64,000 nucleotides of DNA from Streptomonospora nanhaiensis (GTDB taxonomy: Bacteria; Actinomycetota; Actinomycetes; Streptosporangiales; Streptosporangiaceae). The notes under the pieces were generated by a model that saw nothing but the letters and a program-made list of their open reading frames with translations, made no database searches and was not told where the DNA came from. The stretch is taken from NCBI RefSeq assembly GCF_013410565.1, contig NZ_JACCFO010000001.1, positions 5,084,001 through 5,148,000 of the forward strand. The letters are read 5' to 3'. Position 1 is the stretch's first letter. The number at the start of each line of letters is the position of its first letter. Shown piece by piece: positions 2,408 through 40,727 of this stretch. Made by a program: the position numbers and the translations under genes.

Positions 2408-2605
2408 CTAGAACCGCTCTGCGTTTGCCTTCACTGCGTTGACGAAGTCAGTCCAGGCGTCGGCCGGGAAGTCGAGGTGGCCGAGACGTCGGTTCTGGGT
2501 GTCACGCACCAGCACGGTGTCGCCTTCAACTTCAGCGACTTCGACGCACTCAGCGCCGCTGCCCCCGCTGTAGCTGCTCTTGTGCCAAGGACGGTGGCTC
2601 ATCAT
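2408..2605 (-). CDS. DUF397 protein, partner of the upstream XRE regulator
   Basis: A 65-residue protein with the DUF397 hallmarks WHKSSYSGG, CVEVA, VLVRDTQNR and the closing W-x-x-F-V segment. DUF397 proteins are encoded directly after XRE/DUF5753 regulators throughout streptomycetes and relatives, and the pair is thought to behave like a regulator with a small antagonist or partner (Scr1/Scr2 or WhiJ type). Here the ATG overlaps the regulator stop by 4 bp, so translation is coupled. A second ATG lies one codon later. It is convergent with the NlpC/P60 gene; the 95 bp between them shows no clear terminator. Confidence 0.85.
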   Translation of the reverse strand: MMSHRPWHKSSYSGGSGAECVEVAEVEGDTVLVRDTQNRRLGHLDFPADAWTDFVNAVKANAERF

Positions 2606-3420
2606 GCCTGCGATCGCTCCAGCTTCCTGATCAGATCCAAGCTCTCGTGGGGAGACAGCGCCTCCCCTTGAAGTCTTCCATACACGCTCAGCGCCTTACG
2701 CAGTTGGTCTTGCTCGCGTTCGTCGATGATCACTTCATCAAAGGCGTGCTCACTGGCAACAAGGACCTGCAACTCGAAGACGAGCACGCGGAAGGCGCCC
2801 GGCAACCCCGGCTGCGTCTGGGCGGTGGTAGGGAGGACCTGGCACTGAACCCAGCGCTTCTCAACGAGTTCCACAATTCGAGCCAGTTGCGCCTTCATGA
2901 CGGTGGAGCCTCCCACGACTCGGTACAGCACGGCTTCATCAAGGACAACATGGACGATTGGCCGCTCATCCCGGTTGAAGATTTGCTGCCTGTCGATTCG
3001 CCGTTGAACGAGTCGGTCGAGGGTGGATTCGTCTGCTTGCGGATGATGCGCCGCGAACAGAGCACGGGCGTACTCCGGAGTCTGAAGCAGCCCTGGCACC
3101 AGCACGGGATGGTAGTACCGCAGTTCGATAGCGTCCTTCTCCAGGTCGATCGTCTTCCTGAAGTTCCTGGGTACAAGCAGTTCGTTGGCGCACTTGTCCC
3201 AAGACAGCAGGAGCTTCCCATTCGCGTGGAGAGCCTTGTCGATGGCCTGGGCGTGATCCTCCTTGGGAGCCAGCTTGCCGTTCTCAACGTAGGAGAGGGA
3301 AGACTCCGACAGTCCAACCGCCGGTGCAAGCTCCTTCAGAGTCAGCCGCGCCGCCTTCCGCCACGTCCGCACGTCAGAGCCGTACTTTTTCCACGCTGGG
3401 CTGATCTGCCTTAGACCCAT
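2602..3420 (-). CDS. XRE-family regulator with DUF5753 (Scr1-type)
   Basis: 272 residues. The N-terminal helix-turn-helix (about residues 12-70) shows WRKAARLTLKELAPAVGLS and SSLSYVENGK. The rest matches the DUF5753 region with IPGLLQT-like VPGLLQTPEYARAL, RRIDRQQI, and a conserved HVVLDEAVLYR stretch. These proteins are DNA-binding regulators of development or secondary metabolism, paired with DUF397 proteins. It is divergent from the HATPase gene at 3638, a common actinobacterial arrangement, so it is likely to control both itself and the following module. An extended -10 promoter is visible upstream on the minus strand. Confidence 0.9.
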   Translation of the reverse strand: MGLRQISPAWKKYGSDVRTWRKAARLTLKELAPAVGLSESSLSYVENGKLAPKEDHAQAIDKALHANGKLLLSWDKCANELLVPRNFRKTIDLEKDAIELRYYHPVLVPGLLQTPEYARALFAAHHPQADESTLDRLVQRRIDRQQIFNRDERPIVHVVLDEAVLYRVVGGSTVMKAQLARIVELVEKRWVQCQVLPTTAQTQPGLPGAFRVLVFELQVLVASEHAFDEVIIDEREQDQLRKALSVYGRLQGEALSPHESLDLIRKLERSQA

Positions 3421-3470
3421 TTGTCATTCCCTTGGGGGGTTTGGGTGTTCTCCTTCGACCTCCCTTCGGC

Positions 3471-3501
3471 GTTATATCACCCCCACTTCAATCCAAGTCA
3501 A
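3471..3501 (-). promoter_or_regulatory. Probable promoter of the XRE/DUF397 pair
   Basis: On the minus strand, TTGACT (plus 3496-3501) is followed after 19 bases by TGATATAAC (TATAAC at plus 3471-3476), an extended -10 with the TGn motif. It lies about 50 bases before the regulator start. Overlapping this on the plus strand are related CAAGT/ACTTGA half-sites (about 3493-3522) that could be an operator. Judged by consensus only. Confidence 0.45.
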
Positions 3502-3637
3502 GATGTTCAACCAACTTGAGGGAAGCCTGAATGGTGTAGACACGCTTCCTCGCCACATAGCACTGTCTGTTCCAGCCGATAGTCCTGGTCACCCACTACG
3601 GGAGCGCGACCGTGCCGACGTAGGTGCTAGGTAGGGA

Positions 3638-4189
3638 GTGGTTGAAGTGACGGTTGGCAGGCTGCCCCGCAAGCAGACTTCTCCGACTCAGCAAGTAAGC
3701 GACGAAGGCGAGTCGTATGTCGCCAAAGGCTCTCTCTCGCTACCGCGCCGCATTCCCTCCACGCCCCTGGGGCGGCACAGCGTCCTCTTCGGGCACGAGC
3801 CCGACCAGATCAGCGCCGCACGGAGCTGGGCGTGGCGAACGAGCGGGCTTGGCTACGACCACGCAGACTCGCTTCTGCTGGTGCTGTCGGAGCTGCACAC
3901 CAACGCGATCCGCCACACAGCGTCCGGCCTGCCCGGCGGCACGGTCCGCATCGACCTGGAGCGGCTGCCCGATCGCGGCTTGCGTGTGAGCGTCACCGAC
4001 CAGGGGCCTCGGCCGGGCGCCGCGACCACCGTCCCCACGCCGGCCAGCGCCGACCTCTTCACCGACCTCGTCACGGAGGAGTCGGGCCGCGGGCTCGACC
4101 TCGTGGCCTCGCTGAGCCGCGACTGGGGCTGGCACCGCGACGACAGCGGTACCGGGGTCACGGTGTGGGCCGAGTTCGACCGGCCGTAG
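3638..4189 (+). CDS. RsbW-like ATP-binding protein (HATPase_c_2), copy A
   Basis: 183 residues, GTG start. GHKL ATPase boxes are visible: ELHTNAIRHT (N box, Glu85 and Asn89), DQGPRPG (G1, from Asp121) and ESGRGLDLV (G2, near residue 150). These single-domain kinases resemble anti-sigma factors such as RsbW, and in streptomycetes are often paired with XRE/DUF397 genes. It is divergent from such a pair here. A very similar copy sits at 37797-38354, and both are followed by the same kind of small MAW... protein, so the two-gene cassette is duplicated. A third, more distant HATPase is at 18506. The target sigma factor, if any, is unknown. Confidence 0.85.
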   Translation: MVEVTVGRLPRKQTSPTQQVSDEGESYVAKGSLSLPRRIPSTPLGRHSVLFGHEPDQISAARSWAWRTSGLGYDHADSLLLVLSELHTNAIRHTASGLPGGTVRIDLERLPDRGLRVSVTDQGPRPGAATTVPTPASADLFTDLVTEESGRGLDLVASLSRDWGWHRDDSGTGVTVWAEFDRP

Positions 4190-4204
4190 CGGTGGGCGTG
4201 ACCC

Positions 4205-4471
4205 GTGGCGTGGAACGCCGAGGAGGACCGCTGCCAGTACGAGGACGCCTACCGCCTCAAGCAGGTGGTCGGGGTCCGCTGGCTGGTGATGTGGGGACCG
4301 GGCAGCCGAGGCTTCTGGGCCTTCCACCAAGGACCGGTCGTGGTTCCTCCGCTCTCGGCCCCCACCGCCCCCCAGCTCCACGACGCCATCGACCACATGG
4401 AGCGCTGGCTTCCCGGCGGCGGTGTGCACCGGCCCGCCGGTCCGCCCTCTTCCTTCCACCCCCCGTTCTGA
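4205..4471 (+). CDS. Small conserved protein linked to the HATPase (MAW family)
   Basis: 88 residues from a GTG 15 bp after the HATPase stop. No known domain recognised. The first 30 residues (MAWNAEED, YEDAYRLKQVVG) match the protein at 37596-37793, which also follows a HATPase by a few bases, so the pair is a conserved unit. The Trp-rich middle (RWLVMWGPGSRGFW) and acidic start suggest a small globular partner. In the second copy the C-terminal half is different or shifted. Function unknown; a partner of the HATPase is an inference from synteny only. Confidence 0.6.
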   Translation: MAWNAEEDRCQYEDAYRLKQVVGVRWLVMWGPGSRGFWAFHQGPVVVPPLSAPTAPQLHDAIDHMERWLPGGGVHRPAGPPSSFHPPF

Positions 4472-5427: not shown

Positions 5428-5985
5428 ATGACTCGTGGCGAGACCAACGCACGATCGCAGGTTGCATTGGACGTCAGAGATCTTCTACCTCGGTCCGCGT
5501 CTATCATCGAGGCATTCTTCGGTACCACCGAACAAAACTCGAATCCATCTTTGGTATTGGCGACCGCATATGCCCTGGCAAGTCTACATCAGCAGCAGTG
5601 GAACGCTGAAGACGCAAGCAGAAGGCCCGGTGCATCCGTCGACGAGATCGCCGAGAGTAAGCGTCGTATCGATGCCCTAAATGCGCGCCGTGTTTCTCTT
5701 GTGGAACAGATCGACACATGGGCCGATCGCAATGTCACCAGCAAGACAGAAGAAGCACCACTGCACACGGAGACTTTGGGATCCGTCGTTGATCGCCTGG
5801 CTATCGCATGGATCCGCGCCAAAAATATTAGGGAGTCTGGGAACCGTAATCGTGCCCGCCTTGCCCTTCGCCAGCTTATGCAATTAGCTGACGCCTACGA
5901 CGATCTTGTCCGTGACATCGGAGCCGGTCAACGACGGCTTCCGGTATGGCGCTCGCTGAAGACCTACGGCGGTGAGGCGCAGTGA
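5428..5985 (+). CDS. DUF4254 family protein
   Basis: 185 residues, ATG with an AAGGAAG site upstream. Features of DUF4254: the QQWNAEDASRRPGAS region in which the small helical domain begins, IDALNARRVSLVEQID, and ETLGSVVDRLAIAWIR near residue 120. The family is all-helical, of unknown activity, and is often found beside GT9 (heptosyltransferase-like) genes, as here (GT9 four genes on). It starts the module 1 operon and overlaps the next gene by 4 bp (GTGA). Base composition of this gene and the next two is less GC-rich than the rest of the window (codons such as AAA, AAT, ATT appear), which suggests separate acquisition. Confidence 0.8.
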   Translation: MTRGETNARSQVALDVRDLLPRSASIIEAFFGTTEQNSNPSLVLATAYALASLHQQQWNAEDASRRPGASVDEIAESKRRIDALNARRVSLVEQIDTWADRNVTSKTEEAPLHTETLGSVVDRLAIAWIRAKNIRESGNRNRARLALRQLMQLADAYDDLVRDIGAGQRRLPVWRSLKTYGGEAQ

Positions 5986-7865
5986 TGAAAAGCAGCACCC
6001 CGACTTCGGTGTCGCTGAACGGTGTGGACAACATCGGCAAGACGACCAATCTCACGTGGCTGCATCGTGGAATGCCAGGGGCTCAGTTGGTCGGCACCAT
6101 CGATGCCTGGGATTCCCGCTGGCAGGAGGTGGCTTCGGACGACTTCGCGCATTGGTGGTTCGTCAGCTCCAGCACTGCCGAACACGTCGAATTGGTGATG
6201 CGTAGCCACGCCGCGCGCCGTGCCGGTAGCGGTACGTTCGCCTTGGAGGACCGCGGATTGCCGATGCTTCGAGCTGTCTGCGCAGCGACCTCCGTCATCA
6301 AGGACGGACTCGCCCTGGATGAAGCGTTGGCGTTGGTGGACCGAATCGCTGCGGACCACCTGCCGCCTCCGGGGCCGCGCCGAGAGGTACACGTGCTGCT
6401 GCGACGGTCTGCCGTTCCGGCTCACGAGGCCGCTGAAGCGCTCAACCGTGAAGTGGGACCGGTGGGCGAGCGGTACCGCGCCTACCAGAGAGCACTCGCC
6501 GAGATCATGCTCGTCCAGGTTGAGCGCGGTGACTACGACGTGGTACTCGACATCGCGGAAACTGCCATCCTCGACGTACAAAGGCTCCTGCGTGCTCGGC
6601 TTCAGGAACACGGTTTGTGTGTCCTGTCCTTGCCCAGGGCTTCGCTGGAGCGTCTTTGGATGCTAGCCGGCATGTCTGAGAGCGGTAAGAGCACGGTCGG
6701 TGAACTGCTCCGCAGCGAGCACGGTGTGACCCGGCTGAAGATCGGCTACCTACTGGAGATAGCCGCGCTTCGTGCTGGCGTATCCGACCCCTACCAGGCG
6801 TGGTCAGAGGTCGAGCAAGCCGAACGCCTCACCGAGGAAATACTACGCTTCGCAGCGAGTAGCAAAGCTCGCACTATCAGCGTTGAAAGCGCGCACCGCT
6901 TCAAAGCGACGGCGCATTTGAAGCGCGTCTGGGGCGATCGTTGCCGCGTTGTCTTCGTCGCGGCAGACCTAGCGGTTCGCGTCAGTCGTGCGGCGGAAAC
7001 GACGGCACAAGTGCGGGAGCGCGACACCATAAAATTCAAGCGAGGCGCCCATCGGGTCGCAGATATCGCCGATCACATACTTGAAAATTCTGGTCCTCTA
7101 AGTGCGTTGAAGTTTGGAGTGAAGCGGTTGGTCACAGCAACGGGCCTGCGCCACACCGTACCGCCTACCGGTTGGCCGGCGAAACAAGGCAGGTGGCTGC
7201 AAGAGGCCACCGAGTATTTGCGTGATGAGCAGACCGCTCTCGTGCTGGCCACCGGAAGCACCGGAAGTCCGCAGTGGCGCGAAAGGTGGAGCGATATTGA
7301 CCTGCTCGTTGTCCGCAACACCTTGCCGTTGGACTGGCTGCGCGGCGCGGTCGGGACCCTTCCGGCCCCGCAAGGAGTCAAGGTCGGCGTCAGCGCTTTC
7401 ACCATTGGCGACATCGCGGCGCTTCGGATACCGCCGCGTGTCGCGCAATCCCTTCGACGCGCTGCGGATGGCTTCGGTGTCCTCTACCGGCGGGTGGATT
7501 ACCGGATCCCCGTTCCTACCCGCGCACATGTCGACCGTCTCAGCCGCGGGGAACTAGGACTCGTGGCAATGACCACGCGGCGGCTGCTCGCCACCGAGCA
7601 CACCGACGTCCGAGCTGTGTACAAGCACCTCGTGCTTCTGGCGAAGATCTTGCTGCGCGCTGACGGCCACCACCTCGACACCGCCGAAGACGTCCTTGCG
7701 GCGTTCGCCCACCATCACCCAGCAGCGGGCTGTGCGCCACCCTCCCTCGATGACCTCATCCGCGACCCCCTCGATCCCGAAGTGGGCCGCCGACTCACCG
7801 TGGCGACGGTGCGGATGCTGGCATATATCGACAGCCTCGACCACACCGCAAGGGTGAACCCATGA
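5982..7865 (+). CDS. Three-part fusion: thymidylate-kinase-like, second P-loop kinase, nucleotidyltransferase
   Basis: 627 residues. Part 1 (1-220) has a kinase P-loop GVDNIGKTT at 14-22 and an EDRG motif at 89-92, as in dTMP kinase-like proteins. Part 2 (about 225-385) has a second P-loop AGMSESGKST (229-238) and a tail with RERDTIKFKRGAHRVADIAD, as in dephospho-CoA/adenylate-kinase-like enzymes. Part 3 (about 405-620) has GSTGSPQ...SDIDLLVV at 425-444, the GS...DxD signature of the polymerase-beta nucleotidyltransferase fold, followed by helices. The set suggests phosphorylation and nucleotidylation of a small molecule or nucleoside. It overlaps both neighbours by 4 bp. An alternative ATG start lies one codon downstream. 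I know of no characterised protein with this order. Confidence 0.75.
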   Translation: MMKSSTPTSVSLNGVDNIGKTTNLTWLHRGMPGAQLVGTIDAWDSRWQEVASDDFAHWWFVSSSTAEHVELVMRSHAARRAGSGTFALEDRGLPMLRAVCAATSVIKDGLALDEALALVDRIAADHLPPPGPRREVHVLLRRSAVPAHEAAEALNREVGPVGERYRAYQRALAEIMLVQVERGDYDVVLDIAETAILDVQRLLRARLQEHGLCVLSLPRASLERLWMLAGMSESGKSTVGELLRSEHGVTRLKIGYLLEIAALRAGVSDPYQAWSEVEQAERLTEEILRFAASSKARTISVESAHRFKATAHLKRVWGDRCRVVFVAADLAVRVSRAAETTAQVRERDTIKFKRGAHRVADIADHILENSGPLSALKFGVKRLVTATGLRHTVPPTGWPAKQGRWLQEATEYLRDEQTALVLATGSTGSPQWRERWSDIDLLVVRNTLPLDWLRGAVGTLPAPQGVKVGVSAFTIGDIAALRIPPRVAQSLRRAADGFGVLYRRVDYRIPVPTRAHVDRLSRGELGLVAMTTRRLLATEHTDVRAVYKHLVLLAKILLRADGHHLDTAEDVLAAFAHHHPAAGCAPPSLDDLIRDPLDPEVGRRLTVATVRMLAYIDSLDHTARVNP

Positions 7866-8422
7866 CGACCACTCCACACCACCTCGGCTATCACGCGCGT
7901 CGCGTCCGCCGTCTGAACGTCGCAGCCCAGAGCCGGGACGTCCGCATCGTGCACCCGCTCGACGGCATTGACCAGCAAGTGGAGCCGACAGCACTGCTGC
8001 GTGCTGGCAGTGCCCTGTGGCGGAGTTGGCGCCGTCATCCGGCCTTCGCTACCCCGGAGTTGCTGCTGGGACTGGACGCGGGCGGCATCCTGCCCACCAT
8101 CGCCGTGGCGCTGGCCAGCGGTGTGCCCTACCGGCTGGCCTGGAAACTCGATCTCGACCTGCCTAGCAAGCTCCGCTTCACCGAACCCCACGCCCAGCGC
8201 AGCGATGTCTTCGCCTATGGCGACCTCACCGGGAAGAAGGTGCTGTTGATCGATGACGAAACCACGACCGGCAACACACTCGCCAACCTTGTGAGTGAAC
8301 TGCGAGGCGCGGCCGTCGAGGTGGTCGGCGCGGTCTGCCTGATCGAGGACACCACAGGCGACGCTCGATCGCTGCTGGAAGACTCACTGGAGGTGCCTCT
8401 ATGCACTCTCACCCGGATATGA
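7862..8422 (+). CDS. Phosphoribosyltransferase-family protein
   Basis: 186 residues, ATG overlapping the previous stop. The type I PRTase signature KKVLLIDDETTTGNTL (125-140) holds the two acidic residues and Thr/Gly loop that bind PRPP. LLGLDAGGILPTIAVALASG (68-87) is the usual upstream loop of adenine or orotate PRTases. The N-terminal 40 residues are Arg-rich and lack close likeness to housekeeping Apt or PyrE, so a specialised substrate is likely. Coupled to the preceding kinase fusion and to the GT9 gene, it may supply or remove a ribosyl-5-phosphate group in the same pathway. Confidence 0.8.
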   Translation: MTTTPHHLGYHARRVRRLNVAAQSRDVRIVHPLDGIDQQVEPTALLRAGSALWRSWRRHPAFATPELLLGLDAGGILPTIAVALASGVPYRLAWKLDLDLPSKLRFTEPHAQRSDVFAYGDLTGKKVLLIDDETTTGNTLANLVSELRGAAVEVVGAVCLIEDTTGDARSLLEDSLEVPLCTLTRI

Positions 8423-9486
8423 ATCCGTGGATGGTCGGTGCCGTGACCACACGCCGTGGCGGACGCGTTGTCGTGCCCCGTGCGTTCGCACCTTTGGCTC
8501 CCTGCCTGCCGTACCGCCGTGCGGAGGGGCAGCATCCACCAGCAGCCGGCGCCGCATCCGAAATCCAGCGAAGTGGATGGTCCGTTGTCCTCGGTGAACG
8601 TGGGCTCGGTGATTCCTTGCTCGCGTTGGGGTTGCTGAATGGCCTCCTTGACGGCACGTCAATGGGGGATGAAGCGCATTACACGGGGCCACGGCCCCGC
8701 CTGATGCAACGCTGTCGCCTTCCCCTCGCCACCGAATTCTCCGAAGGGCCGCACATCGTTCACAGCACGGGAAACAGAGACGATGTTGTCTTCCGTGCTG
8801 TTCCCGAAGATCCCAAGCCATGGCTTGACCTCCTGGACACCACAAACGTCGAAGTTCACGATGCCCTGCCCATGCGCTACTACTTGGAAGTGGAACAGCG
8901 GCTCGGCATCCGCCTACCCGCTGATCGGTCGCCCCTTCCATCGTTTGCCTCAGGCCAACAAGTGCGCCGTTTTCACGTGGTGTTCATTACGGCGACTAGT
9001 TGGCCCACCCGCAAGGACTACAACTGGGGACGCTTCGCCCACTTCGCAAGCCTGCTTACGGCGCGACTTTCCGTACCTTGGTCATTCACTTTGATCACCG
9101 GAAAGGACCCCGAACCGGCACCATGCGGCGATATCGACGTCCTTGCCGGCATCGATGCCGTGGACTGCCTCGACGTCTTCGCTTCTGCTGAGGTCGTGAT
9201 CGGCAACGACACAGGGCTGACCCATCTGGCCGCACTGACCGAACGTTCCGACGGAACAGCACCCCAGGTAGTTGGTCTCTACGGACGGCACTCGCATACC
9301 AAGTGGACCACGGGACGCAGCAATCACCATGCGATCGCCACCCCTTTTTCGCAGATGCTCGCCGCCGCCGACCGCTGCCCGGTACGGGACCAGCTCGACG
9401 ACGCGCTGTGGTCCTACGAGGGCCTGGGCCAGATTCCTGAAACGCTGATTGCCGACTTCATCGGCAGCGTGGCTGGCTGGTGGTGA
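8419..9486 (+). CDS. Glycosyltransferase family 9 (heptosyltransferase-like)
   Basis: 355 residues from the ATG that forms an ATGA overlap with the upstream stop (an in-frame ATG 6 codons earlier is less likely). The N-terminal Rossmann half has VLGERGLGDSLLALGLLNGL and the C-terminal half has VVIGNDTGLTHLAAL, the conserved donor-site motif of GT9 enzymes such as ADP-heptose:LPS heptosyltransferases. Gram-positive actinomycetes make no LPS, so here it may glycosylate a small molecule or surface polymer. DUF4254 and GT9 genes occur together elsewhere, in agreement with this operon. Confidence 0.8.
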   Translation: MNPWMVGAVTTRRGGRVVVPRAFAPLAPCLPYRRAEGQHPPAAGAASEIQRSGWSVVLGERGLGDSLLALGLLNGLLDGTSMGDEAHYTGPRPRLMQRCRLPLATEFSEGPHIVHSTGNRDDVVFRAVPEDPKPWLDLLDTTNVEVHDALPMRYYLEVEQRLGIRLPADRSPLPSFASGQQVRRFHVVFITATSWPTRKDYNWGRFAHFASLLTARLSVPWSFTLITGKDPEPAPCGDIDVLAGIDAVDCLDVFASAEVVIGNDTGLTHLAALTERSDGTAPQVVGLYGRHSHTKWTTGRSNHHAIATPFSQMLAAADRCPVRDQLDDALWSYEGLGQIPETLIADFIGSVAGWW

Positions 9487-9490
9487 GCCG

Positions 9491-14028: not shown

Positions 14029-14064
14029 TCGCAGATGAGTGGAGCCGCGGTGCTGGAGGCGCCG

Positions 14065-28577: not shown

Positions 28578-28588
28578 CGTATAGCGAT

Positions 28589-28631: not shown

Positions 28632-28635
28632 AACC

Positions 28636-30931: not shown

Positions 30932-31215
30932 TGCCCGCGAAGGTCCTGCCCCTACGCCAGGGACAGCCCGCCGGCCTCGACCCGGACGTGCTGGCGAAAC
31001 TCCGCGCGGAGCACCCGGACTGGTGGATCCGCCCCGAGTGCGGACAGTACGTCGCCACCCACCGGGGCGACCAGGCCGACGAGCAGCGCCACCGCGCCGG
31101 GATCCTGGTCGTGGTGTCCGCCCCCACCCCCGCCGCCCTCCACGCCGAACTCGTCTACCAGGGGGTGTTGCGGTGGGTGGAGTCCGCGACCGCCGTGCGG
31201 AGGTGGTGCCGGTGA
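30931..31215 (+). CDS. Small conserved protein ending in WVESATAVRRW, copy A
   Basis: 94 residues; the ATG shares a base with the previous stop (TGATG). LAKLRAEHPDWWIRPECGQYVATHRG suggests a small domain, and the C-terminus RWVESATAVRRW matches the end of the 38351-38599 product (HRWAESATALRR), although the middle of that copy is different and may be shifted. The next gene starts inside its last codon (GTGA). Function unknown; synteny suggests a partner for the preceding protein. Confidence 0.6.
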   Translation: MPAKVLPLRQGQPAGLDPDVLAKLRAEHPDWWIRPECGQYVATHRGDQADEQRHRAGILVVVSAPTPAALHAELVYQGVLRWVESATAVRRWCR

Positions 31216-34246: not shown

Positions 34247-34285
34247 GGTGAGGCATGGCGGCGGGGCGCCTTCCTCTGTTCGAGT

Positions 34286-34732
34286 TCAGGCAGTCGGCCA
34301 CCCATGCAGCGCGAACCGGTCCCCGGATACCCATGCCTGGATGCCTTCGGCCGGGTAGGGGATCGTGTTCCACGGCAGCACGCGCGGGTCGGCCCACACA
34401 AGCTTGCCAGCCTTGTCCGGCTCGGCGACGACCGGTTCCCCCGACCATTTCTCGGCAAGGAAGAACATGCCGACGCGGGCGAGGTCCGGGTTCTGTCGGT
34501 GATGCACGACGGCGACCAGGGACAGGTCGGCCGGGTCGATGGTGACGCCGACCTCTTCTCGGGCTTCCCTGGCCGCGCCGTGCGGGATCGGCTCGCCCTC
34601 GTCGAGGTGGCCCGAGGGTAGGTGCAGCATCCCGTCGCAGTAGCCCGTTCCCTGCCGCTCCAGCAGGAGAATCTCGTCTCCCCTTGGCAGGATCACGTGT
34701 ACGTCGATGATGCTGCGGTAGCGCTCCGGCAC
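34286..34732 (-). CDS. Nudix hydrolase
   Basis: 148 residues, GTG start with GAGGTGA upstream, 12 bp after the dTMP kinase. Nudix box GHLDEGEPIPHGAAREAREE then VG is intact; LLERQGTGYCDGMLHLPSGH resembles members that act on small NDP-X substrates. Last gene of module 3; only about 40 bp separate it from the IS30 element, so the operon end may have been displaced by the insertion. Confidence 0.9.
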   Translation of the reverse strand: MPERYRSIIDVHVILPRGDEILLLERQGTGYCDGMLHLPSGHLDEGEPIPHGAAREAREEVGVTIDPADLSLVAVVHHRQNPDLARVGMFFLAEKWSGEPVVAEPDKAGKLVWADPRVLPWNTIPYPAEGIQAWVSGDRFALHGWPTA

Positions 34733-34744: not shown

Positions 34745-35380
34745 TCAGGCGGATTCACGGTGTCGTTGCGACCATAGCCCCCCGATGGTGCTGGTGAGCC
34801 CTGAAAGCAGCGACTCGATCGTTTCCGGTCCGCGCGAGGTGTCGGCGACGATGGTGCGCACGCCGGCGCGTTCGGATGCCGCGGCGGCCCCTCGGTACAG
34901 CTCGACCTCACGGCTGGGAAGGGCCGGGTCGTCCTCGAACCGTCCGTGCGAGCCGCGCACGGCGAGCCGTTCGCGCAGCACCTCGGGCGGGGCGGTGAGG
35001 ACGATTTGCAGGTCCGGCGGGTCGGCGAGGGCGTTGATGCAGCGCACCACCGGTTCGGGCACGCCGTCGATCCCGGCTTGCAGGACCAGCGAGGACAGGG
35101 TGTAGCGGTCGCACAGCACCACCTTCCCGGCGTTGACGGCCGGGCGGATCTCGGTTTCGAGGTGGTGGTAGCGGTCAGCGCCGACCAGGCACGCCAAGGC
35201 CATGCCCGTGTACTCGTGGGTGCGCGAGCGCGCGAGCTGCCCGATCTCGCCGCGTGAGGGCTCGGTGGTCGACAGCACGGGCACCCCGGCGCCGGTGAGC
35301 CGTTCGGTGAGGTTGCGGAGCAGGGTGGACTTCCCGGCGGCGCCGGGGCCGTCGATCGCGACGAACAAGCCTCGGCTCAT
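34745..35380 (-). CDS. dTMP-kinase-family protein
   Basis: 211 residues, the usual size for Tmk. P-loop AIDGPGAAGKSTLLRNL, TTEPSRGEIG, DRYTLSSLVLQA (the DRY/H motif) and a lid-like RERLAVRGSHGRFE. Phosphorylates dTMP or a related nucleotide. Housekeeping tmk genes do not lie in operons of this kind, so a modified nucleotide may be the substrate. The ATG overlaps the radical SAM stop by 4 bp. Confidence 0.85.
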   Translation of the reverse strand: MSRGLFVAIDGPGAAGKSTLLRNLTERLTGAGVPVLSTTEPSRGEIGQLARSRTHEYTGMALACLVGADRYHHLETEIRPAVNAGKVVLCDRYTLSSLVLQAGIDGVPEPVVRCINALADPPDLQIVLTAPPEVLRERLAVRGSHGRFEDDPALPSREVELYRGAAAASERAGVRTIVADTSRGPETIESLLSGLTSTIGGLWSQRHRESA

Positions 35381-36852
35381 GCGGCGGCCCTCCGCCCGTG
35401 CTCGCCGTGGGACAGTTCGACCAGGGCGGCGCGGACCTCGTCCACGGTGGCCTCGCCGAACTGGATACCGCTGGAGAAGTTGAACTCGTCGCGGCCCCGC
35501 ATGGCCTCGTCTACGCCTTGGTCGGTGAGGTCCACCGCCGTGTAGTCGAGCAGCTGGTCGGGAGTGTAGTAGCCGGTGGCCATGAGCCGTGCCCATTCGG
35601 GGGTGCCGGGGTAGGGGCGGAACTCGAACACCGAGGAGCGGAACCGGCCCGGGGCTCGGTCGGTGATGTCCCACAGTTCGCGCACGAGATTGACGGTCTC
35701 GCGCATCTCGGCGCGGCTCTCGCTGGGGAACCCCAGGATGAAGTACCCCTTCACTGAGATCCCGCGCTCGACGAGCCGGGTCACGGTCGAGCGGATCATG
35801 TCCTGGGTGATCCGCTTGTCGATGTAGGACAGCATCCGCTCGGACCCGGACTCGATCCCCAGGGCGACCTCGCGTAGCCCGTTCTTCACGAGCCGGTCCA
35901 AGACGTCGTCGCCTTCGCGGGCGAGTACGTTGATCCGCCCCGTGGCGTCCCAGACCGCCCAGTCACCGACCTTGTGCGCGGCGAAGCCGTCCATCATCTG
36001 CTTGATGACGCGGCGGGCGCCCAAGAACAGGTCGTCAACGAACCGGAACGCAGTGACTCCGTAGGCGGTGCGGAGCTGCTCCATCTCGGCCACCACGTTC
36101 TCGGCCGAGCGCACGCGGATCGTCACATCCGGGTTCGCCGAGACGGCGGCGCCGCAGAAACTACAGTCGTACGGGCAACCCCTCGCGCCGACCATGTTCG
36201 CTTCCCACCGGCCGGCGTCGTGGTGGGGGTCTTGGGTGAGGTACCGGCGGTCGACGAACGGCAGTTCGTTGATTGGCGGGGCGAGGTGGTGGTTCTGGCC
36301 AGGGCGGCCGCCGGTCACCGGCTGCCGCATGACGGGGTCGAGCCACATCACCCCGGGCAGGTCGCCCCGGTTGCGGTGGTCGGCCAGCAGTTCGGCGACG
36401 CGGGTCTCACCCTCGCCGATCACCAGGGCCTCGCACCGGGCCATGCGCGGATCGGTGAGGATCTCGGTCGGCATGGCCGTGGCCTGGTGGCCGCCGAGCA
36501 GGACCTTGATCTCCGGGTCGAGGGCGGCGGCGATGTTCGCGGAGATCTCGTAGGTCGGGGCGAGCAGGTTGAACCCGACCCAGCGCGGGTGGACGGCGTT
36601 CACGGCCTGGGCGACGGCGGCGACCGGCAGACCGAGCGCCTCGCCGTCGAGTACGCCGGCGTTGAATCCGCGGTGAGCGGCATAGGTGGCGATGTAACCC
36701 ATCCCCAGGACGGGCAACGTGAAGTCGTTGACGCGCGGCCGCTCGGCGTAGTCGCGCAACGGGGCGTTGACCAGGAGCAGTTCGAGGGGACGGGCGGGGT
36801 CGTGGCCCGTGATCAGGTCATGAGGGTTCGTTCTGGTCGAGGGGTTGGGCAC
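35377..36852 (-). CDS. B12-binding-domain radical SAM enzyme
   Basis: 491 residues. The N-terminal Rossmann-like half (VNAPLRDYAERPRV, VLGMGYIATYAA, VLLGGHQATAMP) is of the cobalamin-binding type, though the DxHxxG lower-ligand motif is not present. The radical SAM core has GARGCPYDCSFCG with Cys226, Cys230 and Cys233 for the 4Fe-4S cluster, and RFVDDLFLG and GYFILGFPSE follow. Such enzymes often methylate unactivated carbons, or cyclise and rearrange. GTG start overlaps the DNA-glycosylase-like gene by 35 bp. Confidence 0.85.
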   Translation of the reverse strand: MPNPSTRTNPHDLITGHDPARPLELLLVNAPLRDYAERPRVNDFTLPVLGMGYIATYAAHRGFNAGVLDGEALGLPVAAVAQAVNAVHPRWVGFNLLAPTYEISANIAAALDPEIKVLLGGHQATAMPTEILTDPRMARCEALVIGEGETRVAELLADHRNRGDLPGVMWLDPVMRQPVTGGRPGQNHHLAPPINELPFVDRRYLTQDPHHDAGRWEANMVGARGCPYDCSFCGAAVSANPDVTIRVRSAENVVAEMEQLRTAYGVTAFRFVDDLFLGARRVIKQMMDGFAAHKVGDWAVWDATGRINVLAREGDDVLDRLVKNGLREVALGIESGSERMLSYIDKRITQDMIRSTVTRLVERGISVKGYFILGFPSESRAEMRETVNLVRELWDITDRAPGRFRSSVFEFRPYPGTPEWARLMATGYYTPDQLLDYTAVDLTDQGVDEAMRGRDEFNFSSGIQFGEATVDEVRAALVELSHGEHGRRAAA

Positions 36853-37591
36853 GTTCGCCTCCCAGGGCGAGAGTGAGTGCGGTCACAACGGACAGTTCGT
36901 AGGAGGAATTGCTGTAGGAGGACCAGCGAGCCGCGAACGCGGCTTCCTGGTCGGGAAGATCGAGGTCGGGGAAGGTCTGCCGGGCGTACTTGCGCACGGC
37001 CATGTCGCCGTAGGGGTAGAGGGAGAAGTCGCCGGTGAAGTCGGCGACGGCGGCGCCGGCCGTCCACGGGCCGATCCGGGGAACGGCTTGTAGTTCGCCG
37101 ACGAGGTCGGAGGGGGGCGCCTGCTCCCACTTTTCGCCGTGGTCGAGCACCGCCTGGGCGGCCGCGCGGAGCGGGTCGCGTTTGAACGCCATCCCGAGCC
37201 CGGTGAACGCCTCGTCGGCAAGGGCCAGCACCACCTTGGGAGCGGGGAAGACCCGGCTGGCCTCGGCGGGTTCGCCGTAGGTACTGGTGAAGCGCTGGTA
37301 CATGAGGCGGGCCTGGTCGGCGCGGATGACCTGCCGGATGATCGCGGTCGCGACGGCTTCCCACAGGTCGGGGGTGCGGAGCCGGGCGACGGGGCCATGG
37401 GCTTCGAGCCCTCGGCGCAGTGGTTCGGGGGCGCGGTCGGAGAGATCGGCGGGGTCGTAGACATCGATGGCGGGGCCAGGCGTAGACAGTTCGATCCCGG
37501 CGGCGCTCGCTGATGCCAGCGAGACGCCGTTGGCCGTGCGGACGAGGCGGCGGCCGTTGTTCCAGGCGGGGTGTTCGCACAGGATGCGCAT
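36818..37591 (-). CDS. HhH-GPD DNA-glycosylase-like protein (AlkA type)
   Basis: 257 residues from ATG 37591, with GGAG 8 bases before. The helix-hairpin-helix-Gly-Pro-Asp motif is ELQAVPRIGPWTAGAAV (166-182) and the catalytic Asp position is in YPYGDMAV (Asp196), as in 3-methyladenine DNA glycosylases. AIIRQVIRADQARLMYQRF matches the upstream helix. AlkA-type enzymes remove alkylated bases from DNA. In this operon with a radical SAM enzyme, dTMP kinase and Nudix it may act on a nucleoside, protect DNA from a modified base, or be part of the product pathway. It starts 4 bp after the MAW-family gene. Confidence 0.8.
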   Translation of the reverse strand: MRILCEHPAWNNGRRLVRTANGVSLASASAAGIELSTPGPAIDVYDPADLSDRAPEPLRRGLEAHGPVARLRTPDLWEAVATAIIRQVIRADQARLMYQRFTSTYGEPAEASRVFPAPKVVLALADEAFTGLGMAFKRDPLRAAAQAVLDHGEKWEQAPPSDLVGELQAVPRIGPWTAGAAVADFTGDFSLYPYGDMAVRKYARQTFPDLDLPDQEAAFAARWSSYSNSSYELSVVTALTLALGGERAQPLDQNEPS

Positions 37592-37595
37592 GGTG

Positions 37596-37793
37596 TCACT
37601 CCGATTCATCAGGGGATTGCACCCTCCCATGAGACGAGGGGCGAACACGGTGAAGGGGAGGGGCGCCCGGCGACAGCCACGTGCACCGGGCGCCCCTGCT
37701 GCGCCAGCGGAGCGCGGTGCGGTCCCCGACCACCTGCTGGAGGTGGCGGGCGTCTTCGTACAGGTGGCTGTCCTCCTGAGCGCTCCAGGCCAC
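37596..37793 (-). CDS. Small MAW-family protein linked to a HATPase, copy B
   Basis: 65 residues, GTG. The first 24 residues (MAWSAQED, YEDARHLQQVVGDR) match the 4205-4471 product; after that the two differ, and the Arg/Pro-rich tail may result from a frame change. It starts 3 bp after the HATPase stop and ends 4 bp before the glycosylase start, so it links the regulatory and metabolic parts of one operon. Confidence 0.55.
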   Translation of the reverse strand: MAWSAQEDSHLYEDARHLQQVVGDRTALRWRSRGARCTWLSPGAPPLHRVRPSSHGRVQSPDESE

Positions 37794-37796
37794 GGG

Positions 37797-38354
37797 TCAC
37801 CCCCACCGCCCCGGCCGGTCGACCTCGGCCCACACCGTGACCCCGGGGCCGCTGTCGTCGCGGTGCCAACCCCAGTCGCGGCTCAGCGCGGCAACGAGGT
37901 CGAGCCCGCGCCCCGACTCCTCCGTGACGAGGCCGGCGAAGAGGTCGGCGCTGGCCGGCGTGGGGACGGTGGTCGCGGCGCCGGGCCGAGGCCCTTGATC
38001 GGTGACGCTCACCCGGAAGCCGCGGTCCGGCAGCCGCTCCAAGTCGACGCGGACCGTGCCGCCGGGCAGGCCGGACGCCGTGTGGCGAAGGGCGTTGGTG
38101 TGCAGCTCCGACAGCACCAGCAGCAGCGAGTCCGCGTGGTCATAGCCCAGCCCGCTCGATCGCCACGCCCAGCTCCTCGCGGTCCTGATCTGGTCGGGCT
38201 CGGGACCGAAGAGGACGCTGTGAACGTCCGCGACAGTGGAGGGGATGCGGCGCGGCAGTGTCAGCAGGCGACGCTGATCGGCGTTTCCGCCGTTCAGCTC
38301 CTGCGGGTTTCCGTACTCCGCACACAACCGCGAAGGACCCCGAGGGTGACTCAC
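37797..38354 (-). CDS. RsbW-like ATP-binding protein (HATPase_c_2), copy B
   Basis: 185 residues from GTG 38354, which forms a GTGA overlap with the upstream gene. N box ELHTNALRHT, G1 DQGPRPG and G2 ESGRGLDLV. From LPRRIPST to the C-terminus it is nearly identical to the protein at 3638-4189, while the first 30 residues differ. Recent duplication or gene conversion between the two modules is likely. Role as in copy A: an anti-sigma-like kinase, target unknown. Confidence 0.85.
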   Translation of the reverse strand: MSHPRGPSRLCAEYGNPQELNGGNADQRRLLTLPRRIPSTVADVHSVLFGPEPDQIRTARSWAWRSSGLGYDHADSLLLVLSELHTNALRHTASGLPGGTVRVDLERLPDRGFRVSVTDQGPRPGAATTVPTPASADLFAGLVTEESGRGLDLVAALSRDWGWHRDDSGPGVTVWAEVDRPGRWG

Positions 38355-38599
38355 GGCGCACACCTCCGCAAGGCGGTCGCCGACTCGGCCCACCGGTGGA
38401 TTTCCCGGGTGGAGAGCAGGCTGTTCAACGCGCTCGAGGGCCTGGCGGATGCCTCAGGCGGTCCGCCCGCAACCCGGACATGCCGGTGGGGATGGATCAT
38501 CCGGAGTCCGAACGGCAGCCCAGCTCCGTAGGCGGGAGGCGACGCTTCAAGGCAGAGGGACTCTGTCCGGCACGACCGGGTAATGACCCCGGCGAGCAT
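38351..38599 (-). CDS. Small protein ending in HRWAESATALRR, copy B (possibly degenerate)
   Basis: 82 residues; ATG at 38599 shares a base with the previous stop (TGATG), as does its counterpart at 30931. Only the C-terminus (REIHRWAESATALRR) is clearly similar to that protein. The middle is Pro/Arg/His-rich with poor coding character, which suggests compensating frameshifts. Coupled to the HATPase by GTGA. Confidence 0.45.
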   Translation of the reverse strand: MLAGVITRSCRTESLCLEASPPAYGAGLPFGLRMIHPHRHVRVAGGPPEASARPSSALNSLLSTREIHRWAESATALRRCAP

Positions 38600-38832
38600 C
38601 ACCGCACCGCCCCGTCGGCAGTGGCCAGGAGACGGGCGAACCTGTCCAAGTCGTAGGACCCCACGGTGTCGCCCGTGTCGTAATGGACCGCCTGGTAATA
38701 GGTGTCGCCAGATTCGTCCGCGGAGTACCGGGTGCACCAACCGGGGTATGCCAAGGTGATGTCGACGAACCTGCTGTAGGTATCGTGGTCCAGCGGGCGC
38801 GGCGTGTACTCGCGGGTCTGGACGGCGGCCAC
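38599..38832 (-). CDS. Small conserved protein of the REYTPRPLDHDTY family, copy B
   Basis: 77 residues from GTG 38832; an ATG at 38907 would add 25 residues. TREYTPRPLDHDTYSRF, GWCTRYSADESGDTYY and YDTGDTVGSYDLDRFARLL match the 30674 protein. First gene of the eight-gene minus-strand run that continues to the Nudix gene at 34286. Function unknown. Confidence 0.65.
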   Translation of the reverse strand: MAAVQTREYTPRPLDHDTYSRFVDITLAYPGWCTRYSADESGDTYYQAVHYDTGDTVGSYDLDRFARLLATADGAVR

Positions 38833-38982
38833 CGTGCCCCTAGGACCCGGGGCCCGGCCCTCTACCGGATGCCAATCTGCCTGATCAGGGGATGCGTCGC
38901 TAAGCATGGGGTGACCGTATGACGCACCTCACGCCTAGACCTGTACTGCTGCGAAGGTAAAAGAACCGCAGTTTCTTGCGGG

Positions 38983-40194
38983 TCAGGCCACCCCAGCGCG
39001 CTGGCACAGCGGCCGGAGTTCTGGAGTCGACGGACGGTGCTCCCTGCGCAGCAGCTCCGTGAGCACTTCGAAGGTGGCGGGGTCGTGCCGGACGAGCTGG
39101 GGCGCCATGGCTTCGGCCTCCAGCAGGGAGTTCACGGCTGCGGAGTCCATGCGCCGCTGGGTATAGCCGCGGGCGATGTCGAGCTTCACCTGAACGCGGC
39201 GACCGATCAGCCCGACCGGGATTGACGACGGGTCCAGCACTTCTCCGGCGTCGATCGCTGTCTGGGCATCACCTACCGCCACAGCCGTACTGATGCGGTG
39301 CATCTCAACGTTCGTCGGTCCGAAGGCGGTGCCGTGATGGTTGAAGTCGCCACCGAGGCGGTCCGCAGCGCGACCAGCCGCGGCGAGGAACCGTGGAATC
39401 GCGGCCCGGTCGTATTCGGCGGCGGCGGCTGTGGCGGCGGCCAAGTGGAGGCCGCCATAGACCGACAGTTCTTCTGCCGTTCCGGGGCGCATACGACGTT
39501 CGAGCGCATAGGCTGCGCCCATCGCGAGGTCAGCGGCTTCGGCTGGGCGCTTACGCGACACCAGGACGTAGGCAAGGCGGTAGGCGCCCACGGCCGCGAG
39601 CAGCGTGTCATCAGCCCATTCCGCCGCGGACATGGCGCGGTCGGCGGCCTGCCACGCCAAGTCGTGCCGACCCACTCTCTTCAGCACAGCGGCAGCCGTG
39701 TTGTACACCTGCGCGCGCGCCGAGCACGCCACCGGGCGATCGCCCCGGCGCCCGCGGGCGGCGGCCTCGACGTCGCGGATGAGGCGCGGCAGGCGCCGAG
39801 CGACTTCGGCGTAGCGGGTCGCCTGGTAGTCGGCGTAGGCACGGTCAGCTTCGGCTTGCAACCGCGCTACGTCCATCGTCCGCTCTTCGCCCGTCTCGGC
39901 GATGATGGACTCCAGACTGGTGTAGCGCAGCATGGCGCGCTCGATCTGGGTGGCTCCGGCAAAGCGGCGATCAACGGGCGCCTCGTCCTCTCCGCCGGTG
40001 AGATCGGCGACGGAGACCGGCAGCACTTCGGCCAGGCGGGTGAGGACGTCGTGGGAGTTGACCTTGTGCTTGCCGCGCTCCACCTGGGAAAGCCATGACT
40101 CCGACCGGCCGATGAGCCCGGCGAGAACTGCTTGGGAGAGTCCGCGTCGAGTGCGGGCCCGGCGGATGATCTGGCCTTGCGTGGCTGCGTCCAC
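38983..40194 (-). CDS. XRE-family regulator with TPR-like domain
   Basis: 403 residues from GTG 40194 behind GGGAGG; the frame is open farther but the HTH begins here. HTH: QIIRRARTRRGLSQAVLAGL, GRSESWLSQVERGKHKVN (about 5-60). The C-domain has ARAQVYNTAAAVLKRVGRHD, AADRAMSAAEWADDTLLAAV and further helical pairs. Similar in plan to the regulator at 28636. It is 14 bp after the flavoprotein gene and about 150 bp before module 3, which it probably controls. Confidence 0.85.
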   Translation of the reverse strand: MDAATQGQIIRRARTRRGLSQAVLAGLIGRSESWLSQVERGKHKVNSHDVLTRLAEVLPVSVADLTGGEDEAPVDRRFAGATQIERAMLRYTSLESIIAETGEERTMDVARLQAEADRAYADYQATRYAEVARRLPRLIRDVEAAARGRRGDRPVACSARAQVYNTAAAVLKRVGRHDLAWQAADRAMSAAEWADDTLLAAVGAYRLAYVLVSRKRPAEAADLAMGAAYALERRMRPGTAEELSVYGGLHLAAATAAAAEYDRAAIPRFLAAAGRAADRLGGDFNHHGTAFGPTNVEMHRISTAVAVGDAQTAIDAGEVLDPSSIPVGLIGRRVQVKLDIARGYTQRRMDSAAVNSLLEAEAMAPQLVRHDPATFEVLTELLRREHRPSTPELRPLCQRAGVA

Positions 40195-40208
40195 GGCCCG
40201 CCTCCCTT

Positions 40209-40727
40209 CTACTTGCCCGTAGTGGCAGTGTGCACTGCGTCGACTACGTCGCGCCAGGCGGGAAGACGCTTCTCGTAGGGAGCGTCCGGGTCGTGCAGCA
40301 GGGTTACGGCCGGCATCGTCCGCAGCGTCTGCAAGGCACGTTGAAAGGCCGGGTGATCGGCAAGTTGGGGCTTGAAGTGCGGGACCACGACGGTGGGCAC
40401 CCGATAACCGACCATTTCGCATAAAAGGCTAATTGCGAAGTTGTCTGCGATTCCGTTCGCAAATTTGTTGGTGGAGTTGAAGGTGAGTGGGCACGCGAGT
40501 ACAGCATCGGCAGGAGCCAAGGGAGTTCCGGTCCCCGGCCTGCGGTAATCGACCCGCACCGATTCACCAGTCAGGTCCGCGATACGAGCGAGGTCATGGA
40601 AACCGGCTCCTGTGGGCGTCGAGAACACGGCCACTCGCCAGCCCGTGCTGTGCAGCGATTCGATCAGTCCCGCTAGCCCTTCGGGGGCTGGAGCGGCGGA
40701 GATGACGAGGTAGAGCATGCGGGCCAT
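40209..40727 (-). CDS. Flavoprotein (PPC-decarboxylase/EpiD-like fold)
   Basis: 172 residues. Starts MLYLVISAAPAPEGLAGLIE and has ADAVLACPLTFNSTNKFANG with IADNF, corresponding to the PASANT-type loop and the ADN motif of the HFCD family (Dfp, EpiD/LanD). HFCD proteins bind FMN and decarboxylate cysteine-containing substrates. In streptomycetes such genes are frequently paired with XRE regulators, as here (14 bp apart), where they may serve as small-molecule-responsive partners. Whether it is an active decarboxylase is unclear. Confidence 0.75.
   Translation of the reverse strand: MARMLYLVISAAPAPEGLAGLIESLHSTGWRVAVFSTPTGAGFHDLARIADLTGESVRVDYRRPGTGTPLAPADAVLACPLTFNSTNKFANGIADNFAISLLCEMVGYRVPTVVVPHFKPQLADHPAFQRALQTLRTMPAVTLLHDPDAPYEKRLPAWRDVVDAVHTATTGK

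Follow-up and report, generated by a model that had tools for sequence, protein, structure and literature searches.

Three kinase–Nudix gene modules on an integrated element of Streptomonospora nanhaiensis and a proposed nucleotide-analogue pathway

Three gene modules on an integrated element

The window analysed here is a stretch of 64,000 nucleotides of the Streptomonospora nanhaiensis genome (C1:5084001-5148000, C1 being contig NZ_JACCFO010000001.1 of the 6.28-Mb genome), and it holds the right-hand 60.8 kb of an integrated element. Judged from its att repeats, the element is about 86.9 kb long, with a tRNA-Arg gene as its attachment site. An integrase gene and an att duplication at a tRNA gene occur together with genes for a relaxase and a coupling protein, and by this gene content the element is a putative integrative conjugative element. 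Its cargo includes three modules (Table 1), in which a kinase-like gene (K1, K2, or K3) is found with a Nudix gene (N1, N2, or N3), a HATPase gene, and a regulator gene. The kinase and Nudix genes are kept together in relatives, and module 3 may direct the synthesis of a toxic nucleotide analogue with built-in self-protection. The initial annotation of this DNA had described three modules with these parts, and Pfam and NCBIfam matches bore it out, the kinases of modules 1 and 2 giving only sub-threshold P-loop matches.

All genes of module 3 lie on the minus strand. Its helix-hairpin-helix (HhH) protein had no Pfam match at 0.01. The AlphaFold2 model of this protein (pLDDT 91) contained N-terminal strands and was matched by Foldseek to 4ejy (E 3e-7, TM 0.63) and also to OGG1 and AlkA; the protein models as an HhH fold with the N-terminal beta domain of AlkA/OGG1-type glycosylases. 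Its Asp202, likened by eye to the catalytic Asp of AlkA, was invariant (38/38). N1, N2, and N3 all scored above the PF00293 gathering cut-off of 21.1. The canonical Nudix box (Gx5Ex7REUxEExG) was present in 22/22 sequences of the N3 family and 10/10 of the N2 family. None of the 11 N1-family sequences had it; the first Glu was found in one of them and RE..EE in all 11.

The three kinases had been taken as comparable nucleotide kinases. This held for K3, which passed the TIGR00041 dTMP-kinase cut-off (83.25 bits), as did the kinases of loci L137 and L131 outside the window (96.6 and 115.7 bits); K2 and the N-terminal domain of K1 (K1N) are at best distant relatives. In K1, an N-terminal P-loop domain, possibly dTMPK-like, is followed by a second, AAA_33-like P-loop (sub-threshold) and, by eye, a nucleotidyltransferase-like C-terminal region. 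Profile comparisons with hhalign gave 97.4% for K2-K3 over 190 columns, 94.8% for K1N-K2 over 196, and 93.8% for K1N-K3 over 171, and the second P-loop domain of K1 reached only 10.7-15.9%. Against a housekeeping tmk profile, the values were 99.75% for K3 over 198 columns, 83.8% for K2 over 188, and, over just 44 columns, 89.7% for K1N. A T2SSE P-loop family that served as an unrelated control gave 74.1%, 84.5%, and 50.9%, respectively, over 22-39 columns. Given these control values, the kinship of K1N and K2 rests on the full-length profile matches; K2 is a probable distant relative and K1N a possible one. Another set of P-loop controls (1.8-56% to the three kinases) was set aside, since a nuclease, L227_2, was among its four sequences.

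Table 1. Features of the element and of its three modules in the window
Feature	Positions	Strand	Evidence
TraG-type and Replic_Relax proteins	20-1782		PF13814 148 bits; TraG-D_C 22 bits, equal to its cut-off
Module 1, front end: DUF397 protein	2408-2605	-	PF04149 4e-20
Module 1, front end: XRE/DUF5753 regulator	2602-3420	-	PF19054 2e-46
Module 1: HATPase	3638-4189	+	PF13581 1e-16
Module 1: DUF4254 protein	5428-5985	+	PF14063 9e-31; missed by gene caller
Module 1: K1, P-loop protein	5982-7865	+	sub-threshold AAA_33 match only
Module 1: phosphoribosyltransferase	7862-8422	+	PF00156 1e-8
Module 1: GT9-type glycosyltransferase	8401-9486	+	PF01075 1e-7
Module 1: APH-like kinase (by eye)	9449-10630	+	no Pfam or NCBIfam match; relative in 10/10 module-1 loci
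Module 1: SDR oxidoreductase	10632-11378	+	PF13561 1e-45
Module 1: histidine phosphatase	11366-11995	+	PF00300 7e-22
Module 1: N1, Nudix, variant box	12034-12510	-	PF00293 8e-16, 58.8 bits
GNAT acetyltransferase beside module-2 regulator	16394-16900	-	PF00583 9e-19
Module 2: NsdA-family TPR regulator	16897-18363	-	NF053720 210 bits (cut-off 75); no Pfam match for reading frame 16897-18672
Module 2: HATPase	18506-18940	+	PF13581 1.5e-12
Module 2: GT2 glycosyltransferase	18937-19911	+	PF00535 2e-18
Module 2: archaeal-type S-adenosylmethionine synthetase	19914-21152	+	PF01941 1e-106
Module 2: xylose-isomerase-like TIM barrel	21149-22027	+	PF01261 3e-33
Module 2: Gfo/Idh/MocA oxidoreductase	22024-22974	+	PF01408 7e-17
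Module 2: K2, probable distant dTMPK-like P-loop kinase	22986-23837	+	sub-threshold AAA/dTMP-kinase matches only
Module 2: carbamoyltransferase	23834-25492	+	PF16861 6e-58, PF02543 2e-34
Module 2: N2, Nudix, canonical box	25470-25946	+	PF00293 3e-16, 59.9 bits
Module 3: N3, MutT-like Nudix, canonical box	34286-34732	-	PF00293 1e-13, 52 bits
Module 3: K3, dTMP-kinase-family kinase	34745-35380	-	TIGR00041 92.3 bits; best solved thymidylate kinase match 5e-19
Module 3: B12-binding radical SAM enzyme	35377-36852	-	PF04055 2e-17, PF02310 2e-11
Module 3: AlkA/OGG1-fold HhH protein (putative DNA glycosylase)	36818-37609	-	AlphaFold2 and Foldseek
Module 3: HATPase	37797-38354	-	PF13581 3e-15 for 37797-38393
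Module 3: XRE/TPR regulator	38983-40194	-	PF13560 4e-12 for 38983-40422; TPR part by likeness to other regulators
Tyrosine integrase, adjoining att repeat	59045-60529	+	PF00589 4e-16
att repeat, overlapping tRNA-Arg 3' end	60771-60832	+	62 bp, 94% identity; partner copy C1:5057934-5057995

Conservation of the kinase and Nudix genes among relatives

Genome-wide, HATPase_c_2 gave 34 matches over the cut-off and Nudix gave 30, with three of each within the element (Poisson P = 0.012 and 0.009, respectively). By number alone, the grouping into modules is mildly above chance. Because this in-genome enrichment was modest on its own, the association was examined in relatives. A search of 297 genomes of the order, counting that of the window, found K2 in 11, K1 in 17, and the radical SAM (S-adenosylmethionine) enzyme of module 3 in 35 (E 1e-30 for the latter). 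Besides the window, 10 of 11 K2 places, 10 of 16 K1 genomes, and 20 of 36 radical SAM places were fetched, better matches first. Each locus was thus picked for its likeness to a single gene, and related loci do not count as independent. Family calls with local hidden Markov models (HMMs) may miss members; gene calls in the fetched loci are codon-model calls and were checked against NCBI annotation at L188-L190 only.

A Nudix gene was found within 6 kb of the kinase gene in 40/40 relatives (module 1, 10/10; module 2, 10/10; module 3, 20/20) versus 0/12 housekeeping thymidylate-kinase loci, which places the kinase-Nudix association clearly above chance. The initial annotation had proposed a shared kinase-Nudix-HATPase plan and had noted that the absence of this association from relatives would make it a coincidence; the pair withstood this comparison, and the HATPase did not. 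A HATPase gene lay within 6 kb of the kinase in only 7/40 relatives (module 3, 3/20; module 2, 1/10; module 1, 3/10) and in 0/12 housekeeping loci, so that the HATPase was rejected as a fixed part of the modules. Gene order within the enzyme blocks was well kept: the series glycosylase-like gene, radical SAM, kinase, Nudix was identical in 20/20 module-3 loci, and kinase, carbamoyltransferase, Nudix recurred in nine of ten module-2 loci, the tenth (L113) being divergent. Relatives of K1, the 9449-10630 gene, the SDR gene, and the Nudix gene were all present in 10/10 module-1 loci, with K1 split into two genes in L119-L123. The fixed order of regulator, HATPase, kinase, and Nudix that had been described is not conserved among the relatives.

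A HATPase or a TPR/XRE regulator gene within 6 kb was observed in 29/40 relatives versus 1/12 housekeeping loci, and HATPase and regulator are exchangeable front ends. Regulatory triads of XRE, DUF397, and HATPase proteins are known in actinobacteria. The front end of module 1 is like them, and module 3 has a near-identical HATPase; unlike the known triads, such front ends here precede unrelated enzyme blocks. The HATPase region is duplicated in inverted orientation within the element (3740-4279 and 37719-38258, 89% nucleotide identity), and so is that of a small protein (30700-30938 and 38592-38830, 77%). These inverted duplications suggest that front ends have been copied and moved.

This way of arranging genes had been put forward as a new type of cargo organisation; it extends beyond the element, being found again on plasmids, in one temperate phage, and in the genomes of other genera. 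Nocardiopsis, Actinomadura, Nocardia, and Streptomyces are among the named organisms with a relative of the module-3 radical SAM enzyme. In Nocardia, the relatives have the kinase ahead of the glycosylase-like gene; the Nudix gene lies on the opposite strand in L179 and L187, and L177 has none within 3 kb. Twelve Streptomyces or Kitasatospora plasmid records match the enzyme at 55-61%; five were inspected, and all five carry a hypothetical protein, radical SAM, and dTMP kinase, followed by NUDIX in four and a MazG-like gene in one. By NCBI annotation, plasmids NZ_CP023977 and NZ_CP109386 encode thymidylate synthase, nucleoside-diphosphate (NDP) kinase, radical SAM, and 3'-5' exonuclease, and NZ_CP109010 encodes radical SAM, tmk, endonuclease/exonuclease/phosphatase, and a MazG-like protein. 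Ahead of the cluster of NZ_CP109386, a TPR regulator faces a HATPase (HMM 3e-79 and 2e-39), a front end of the module-2 kind. Module 2 itself occurs on two plasmids, each with a TPR regulator facing the module. GNAT genes adjoining regulators on plasmids L127 and L244 had no BLAST match to the GNAT of the window at 1e-3. In temperate Streptomyces phage SF3 (L188, NC_028952.1 14205-39653), all four module-3 genes, preceded by a HATPase-like gene, lie between the lysis region and the integrase. A search of IMG/VR viral contigs with K3 confirmed 0/7 candidate stretches, and type A radical SAM proteins (see below) had only distant matches in phage records, in four of them.

Accessory kinases were then surveyed with PF02223 in 61 genomes of the family, a search that turned up housekeeping kinases as well; 28 accessory and 12 housekeeping stretches were fetched. 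The 41 accessory rows comprised 32 in the 28 fetched stretches, five module-3 loci fetched earlier, one K2 locus, the window itself, and two (G162) that were taken as a split housekeeping gene and left out of the fetch. Once module-3 copies (L134, L139, L149) and stretches with no kinase called (L141, L144, L146, L147) had been set aside, 21 other accessory-kinase loci remained. HATPase was found in 11 of them, Nudix in 7, and, by local HMMs, radical SAM in 12, and all 12 radical SAM loci also had a nuclease within 6 kb (ExoIII-like in 5, DnaQ-like in 7). In L143, a MazG-like gene adjoins the kinase; S-adenosylhomocysteine (SAH)-hydrolase-like proteins, as well as enzymes of the GT8 and PIG-L types, occur in other islands. 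It is common for accessory thymidylate kinases of the family to lie in islands of this kind, and most of those with a radical SAM enzyme also have an AlkA/OGG1-fold, ExoIII-like, or DnaQ-like protein together with a Nudix, MazG, or CYTH hydrolase. Across all accessory-kinase loci, Nudix was present in 47/61 versus 0/12 housekeeping loci (Fisher 5e-7, overstated because relatives are not independent). The similar regulation claimed for the modules holds loosely, with a HATPase or TPR/XRE regulator within 6 kb in 42/61 loci versus 1/12, the HATPase being no fixed part. The accessory thymidylate-kinase-like gene of L153 adjoins a gene for a protein of the GH3 family, which is best known from plants.

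Among 39 distinct module-3-type radical SAM proteins longer than 400 aa, a thymidylate kinase lay within 3 kb in 39/39, a glycosylase-like gene in 37/39, and a triphosphate hydrolase in 37/39; radical SAM, kinase, and nucleoside-triphosphate hydrolase were all within 3 kb in 37/39. The hydrolase was a Nudix protein in 31, MazG-like in 4, and CYTH in 2, with none in L140 and L177; L140 is a distant relative that also has no glycosylase-like gene. The CYTH relative matches the triphosphate tunnel metalloenzyme 7ns8 (1e-6). As read from these family matches, MazG or CYTH in place of Nudix is replacement of the slot by unrelated folds of one activity class. CYTH relatives also occur in the six long-flank type-A stretches (L130, L132, L133, L137, L138, L147) and are absent from the divergent type-A loci L150, L154, and L155. 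Some copies are decayed: the radical SAM gene is in two pieces around another open reading frame in L185 and contains a stop in L147/L206 (the same place), and L149 has a short kinase and a Nudix gene with no radical SAM called.

The radical SAM proteins of the accessory-kinase loci, of two types designated A and B, were used as anchors for separate searches of the 297 genomes (E 1e-40). Type A matched 18 genomes and type B 37, and 22/22 and 30/43 places, respectively, were taken as loci, with a flank of only 1.5 kb. The 19 distinct type-A loci comprised 14 with kinase and ExoIII-like genes, two with kinase and DnaQ-like genes (L154, L155), two with kinase only (L150, L199), and one with an ExoIII-like gene only (L198). 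The 31 distinct type-B loci comprised 12 with DnaQ-like and kinase genes, 13 with DnaQ-like, CMP (cytidine monophosphate)-hydroxymethylase-like, and NDP kinase genes, and three with a DnaQ-like gene only; in the remainder, L241 had the CMP-hydroxymethylase-like gene only, L242 had it with NDP kinase and Nudix, and L213, near a contig end, had none. For the CMP-hydroxymethylase-like protein, the match to MilA (4e-81) is far better than that to thymidylate synthase (2e-13). Its neighbour matches NDP kinases, and by eye the protein itself has an Asp at the cytosine-selecting position, a Lys, and a Gly for Ala176 of MilA. Type-B loci without a kinase were considered as counter-evidence, and this was dropped given that their neighbours are the CMP-hydroxymethylase-like enzyme and NDP kinase. 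A C-terminal 'LF' tail (0-3 residues after) was found in 16/17 ExoIII-like and 22/33 DnaQ-like proteins versus 7/1330 other proteins longer than 150 aa; it was present in 0/39 glycosylase-like, 1/113 kinase, and 0/79 Nudix proteins, and Fisher values for these counts overstate significance in the same way. The tails on both nuclease families presumably resemble a sliding-clamp-binding motif.

A proposed nucleotide-analogue pathway and its alternatives

The favoured reading, to which we assign a probability of roughly 0.55, is that module 3 produces a toxic analogue of a nucleotide together with the means to protect its own carrier, and that modules 1 and 2 are its looser cousins. We infer the substrate, the product, and the order of steps as follows. 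The B12-binding radical SAM enzyme would yield a modified nucleoside or nucleotide, which K3 would phosphorylate toward the active di- or triphosphate. For self-protection, N3 would hydrolyse the analogue triphosphate inside the producer, and the AlkA/OGG1-fold protein would clear analogue already in DNA. The ecological role of the product would be to poison nucleic-acid synthesis of rival bacteria or invading phages. Regulator and HATPase may act as a swappable switch that keeps a costly pathway off until needed. Modules 1 and 2 would use the same kinase and Nudix slots with other tailoring enzymes; as far as gene content goes, a shared organisation is all that is established for them.

Synthesis of a nucleotide analogue with self-protection is proposed because of the thmABC precedent, the albucidin region, and the MilA-like enzyme of the sister clusters. 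The proposal also draws on the conserved core of the module-3-type loci, the exchange of hydrolases in one slot, the type-A and type-B anchors, the 'LF' tails, and the modelled glycosylase fold with its invariant Asp202. In Photorhabdus, thmABC (radical SAM, kinase, and triphosphatase) makes 4'-thiothymidine, a product that enters DNA, and ThmC, the triphosphatase, by itself gives self-resistance and protects E. coli; ThmB is described as an AbmG-like nucleoside kinase (PMC12691670). Likened by enzyme kind, thmABC and module 3 are both compact units of radical SAM, kinase, and triphosphate hydrolase with changing neighbours, and by this analogy thmABC is the closest tested precedent. In the available passages on thmABC (PMC12691670), neither a glycosylase or nuclease gene acting on DNA nor a front end of regulator and HATPase is described; module 3 has the glycosylase-like protein in addition. 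In the albucidin cluster of Streptomyces albus, the radical SAM enzymes albA and albB make the nucleoside, and the table of the cloned region has a thymidylate kinase gene five genes before albA, so that, compared by description, radical SAM and thymidylate kinase genes share a region as in module 3; the passages at hand give the kinase no role and name no Nudix or glycosylase (PMC7074753). The relative of MilA, the CMP hydroxymethylase of mildiomycin, is in the sister clusters outside the window and differs from MilA by the Gly at Ala176 (PMC5175136). The idea of nucleotide-derived pathways, claimed for all three modules, is strengthened for module 3 above all, because sister clusters hold the CMP-hydroxymethylase-like enzyme with NDP kinase and because Nudix is exchanged for MazG or CYTH; it found no such sign in modules 1 and 2.

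Prokaryotic viperins are radical SAM enzymes that make modified nucleotides against phages (PMC10865869). The viperin model NF038283 (cut-off 180 bits) gave 56.9 bits for L137_4 (type A, outside the window), 37.2 for L154, and 35.7 for L145, and viperin membership was rejected; for the module-3 enzyme, no viperin model was among the best 25 of 29 matches. The PADLOC candidate PDC-M51 matched the module-3 radical SAM enzyme and K3 weakly (A and B proteins; 22.6 and 36.9 bits, model without a stated cut-off), and its name was not found in the literature searched. No publication on these clusters was found, as judged by titles and abstract openings in a coverage without most subscription papers.

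Several observations weigh against the favoured reading. The HhH protein scored 27.2 bits with the NCBIfam AlkA model (cut-off 229) and is not filed as AlkA. K2 failed the TIGR00041 cut-off at 15.8 bits, K1 was unmatched, and K2 scored about as well with the T2SSE control (84.5%, 39 columns) as with housekeeping tmk (83.8%, 188 columns). Modules 1 and 2 are without a radical SAM and a DNA-repair gene, no gene evidence indicates a nucleotide step in them, and their Nudix proteins could act on sugar nucleotides. Among related loci, L177 has the core trio with no hydrolase within 3 kb, and the DnaQ-like gene of L140 is 2 kb off on the opposite strand. L145 combines a MoaA-like radical SAM, a kinase, and Nudix, with no nuclease or repair gene detected. 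Radical SAM was not detected in 8/21 of the other accessory-kinase loci, in a scan that covered part of the proteins, and L152 and L153 had none of the scored partner families.

It is also conceivable, though unlikely, that the modules are ordinary secondary-metabolite clusters whose product is not a nucleotide; kinase and Nudix would then handle sugar nucleotides or other phosphates, and the likeness between modules would reflect common bookkeeping enzymes. Modules 1 and 2 fit this view, being rich in glycosyltransferases and oxidoreductases and having a carbamoyltransferase and SAM synthetase, as do the SAH-hydrolase-like, GT8, and PIG-L proteins of other islands. The enzyme set of module 3, with a dTMP kinase above a curated cut-off, and the type-B sister clusters with CMP-hydroxymethylase and NDP kinase point instead to nucleotides.

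Somewhat less credible is DNA base hypermodification, in which a modified deoxynucleotide is made, or finished on DNA, and marks element or phage DNA against restriction, the HhH protein being a base-modifying pyrophosphorylase and kinase and hydrolase shaping the pool. Kinases and HhH-type pyrophosphorylases take part in phage thymine pathways, and aGPT-PPlase or hmdU-kinase type domains are a hallmark of phage base hypermodification. Phage SF3 holds the whole of module 3 beside its integrase, and some phages produce modified pyrimidine nucleotides with enzymes of the thymidylate synthase family (PMC5175136). However, the HhH protein, itself without a Pfam match, has a model that matches OGG1/AlkA over most of its length, and phage '5-hmdU DNA kinase helical domain' proteins matched this model only at E 0.27 and 1.0. 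In addition, exonucleases as kinase partners in related modules sit oddly with a stable modification, and one phage record pair stands against many bacterial replicons.

We consider it improbable that the modules form a signalling system, in which the adjacent TPR regulator would respond to a nucleotide-derived signal made by the enzymes and the HATPase would serve as an anti-sigma-like relay. A TPR regulator within 6 kb in 34/61 accessory-kinase loci versus 1/12 controls, and the NsdA-family regulator of module 2, agree with such a system, but front ends vary between copies of one module, and the glycosylase and nucleases are left unexplained. Chance stacking of three unrelated imported clusters with common actinobacterial regulators and Nudix genes is the least probable account, ruled out for kinase and Nudix by 40/40 versus 0/12 and holding partly for the HATPase, which is common in the genome and went undetected within 6 kb in 33/40 relatives.

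Extending the proposal of an analogue made by module 3, we suggest tentatively, and with less assurance than for the module itself, that a family of nucleotide-analogue weapons, large, modular, and for the most part undescribed, is carried on actinobacterial integrative conjugative elements, plasmids, and temperate phages; its members would combine a tailoring enzyme, a kinase slot, and two-layer immunity and would perhaps serve phage defence too. Radical SAM enzymes of several types, some with a CMP hydroxymethylase, would carry out the making step, and a dTMP-kinase-like or NDP kinase would arm the analogue; Nudix, MazG, or CYTH proteins would guard the pool, and DNA would be guarded by a nuclease tethered to the replisome or by a DNA glycosylase. 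Clamp-binding-like tails on two unrelated nuclease families would amount to immunity at the replication fork. If so, the combination of accessory thymidylate kinase, triphosphate hydrolase, and DNA-sanitation enzyme would be a rule for finding cryptic nucleoside-antibiotic or antiviral-nucleotide pathways that may escape standard cluster detection, and it would predict the self-resistance gene of each. Modules on the integrative conjugative element, on plasmids, and beside the phage SF3 integrase would also tie antibiotic production to phage-phage or phage-host conflict.

Repeats and other genes of the element

A 109-bp perfect repeat links the region upstream of module 2 (15538-15646) with 34144-34252, at the start of an rve/HTH_38 transposase gene (32975-34207). 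A beta-lactamase-family serine hydrolase sequence is present twice (14065-14672 and 40918-41530; 94% nucleotide identity across some 610 bases), and the likeness breaks off within the copy at 14035-15225. At 27405-29892, an XRE/TPR regulator lies beside a methyltransferase that comes close to the ATP-grasp peptide-maturase type (TIGR04188, 300 bits against a cut-off of 380); relatives also occur near the module-3 copies L087, L090, L092, and L176. Two adjacent genes at 55475-57156 have N6_N4 methylase matches, the first weak and the second covering only the end of the profile. A run of genes at 44128-52179, which encodes short pilin-like proteins as well as a T2SSE ATPase (45176), is Tad-pilus-like by eye, odd beside conjugation genes, and closes with an OmpA/BTAD protein at 49681.

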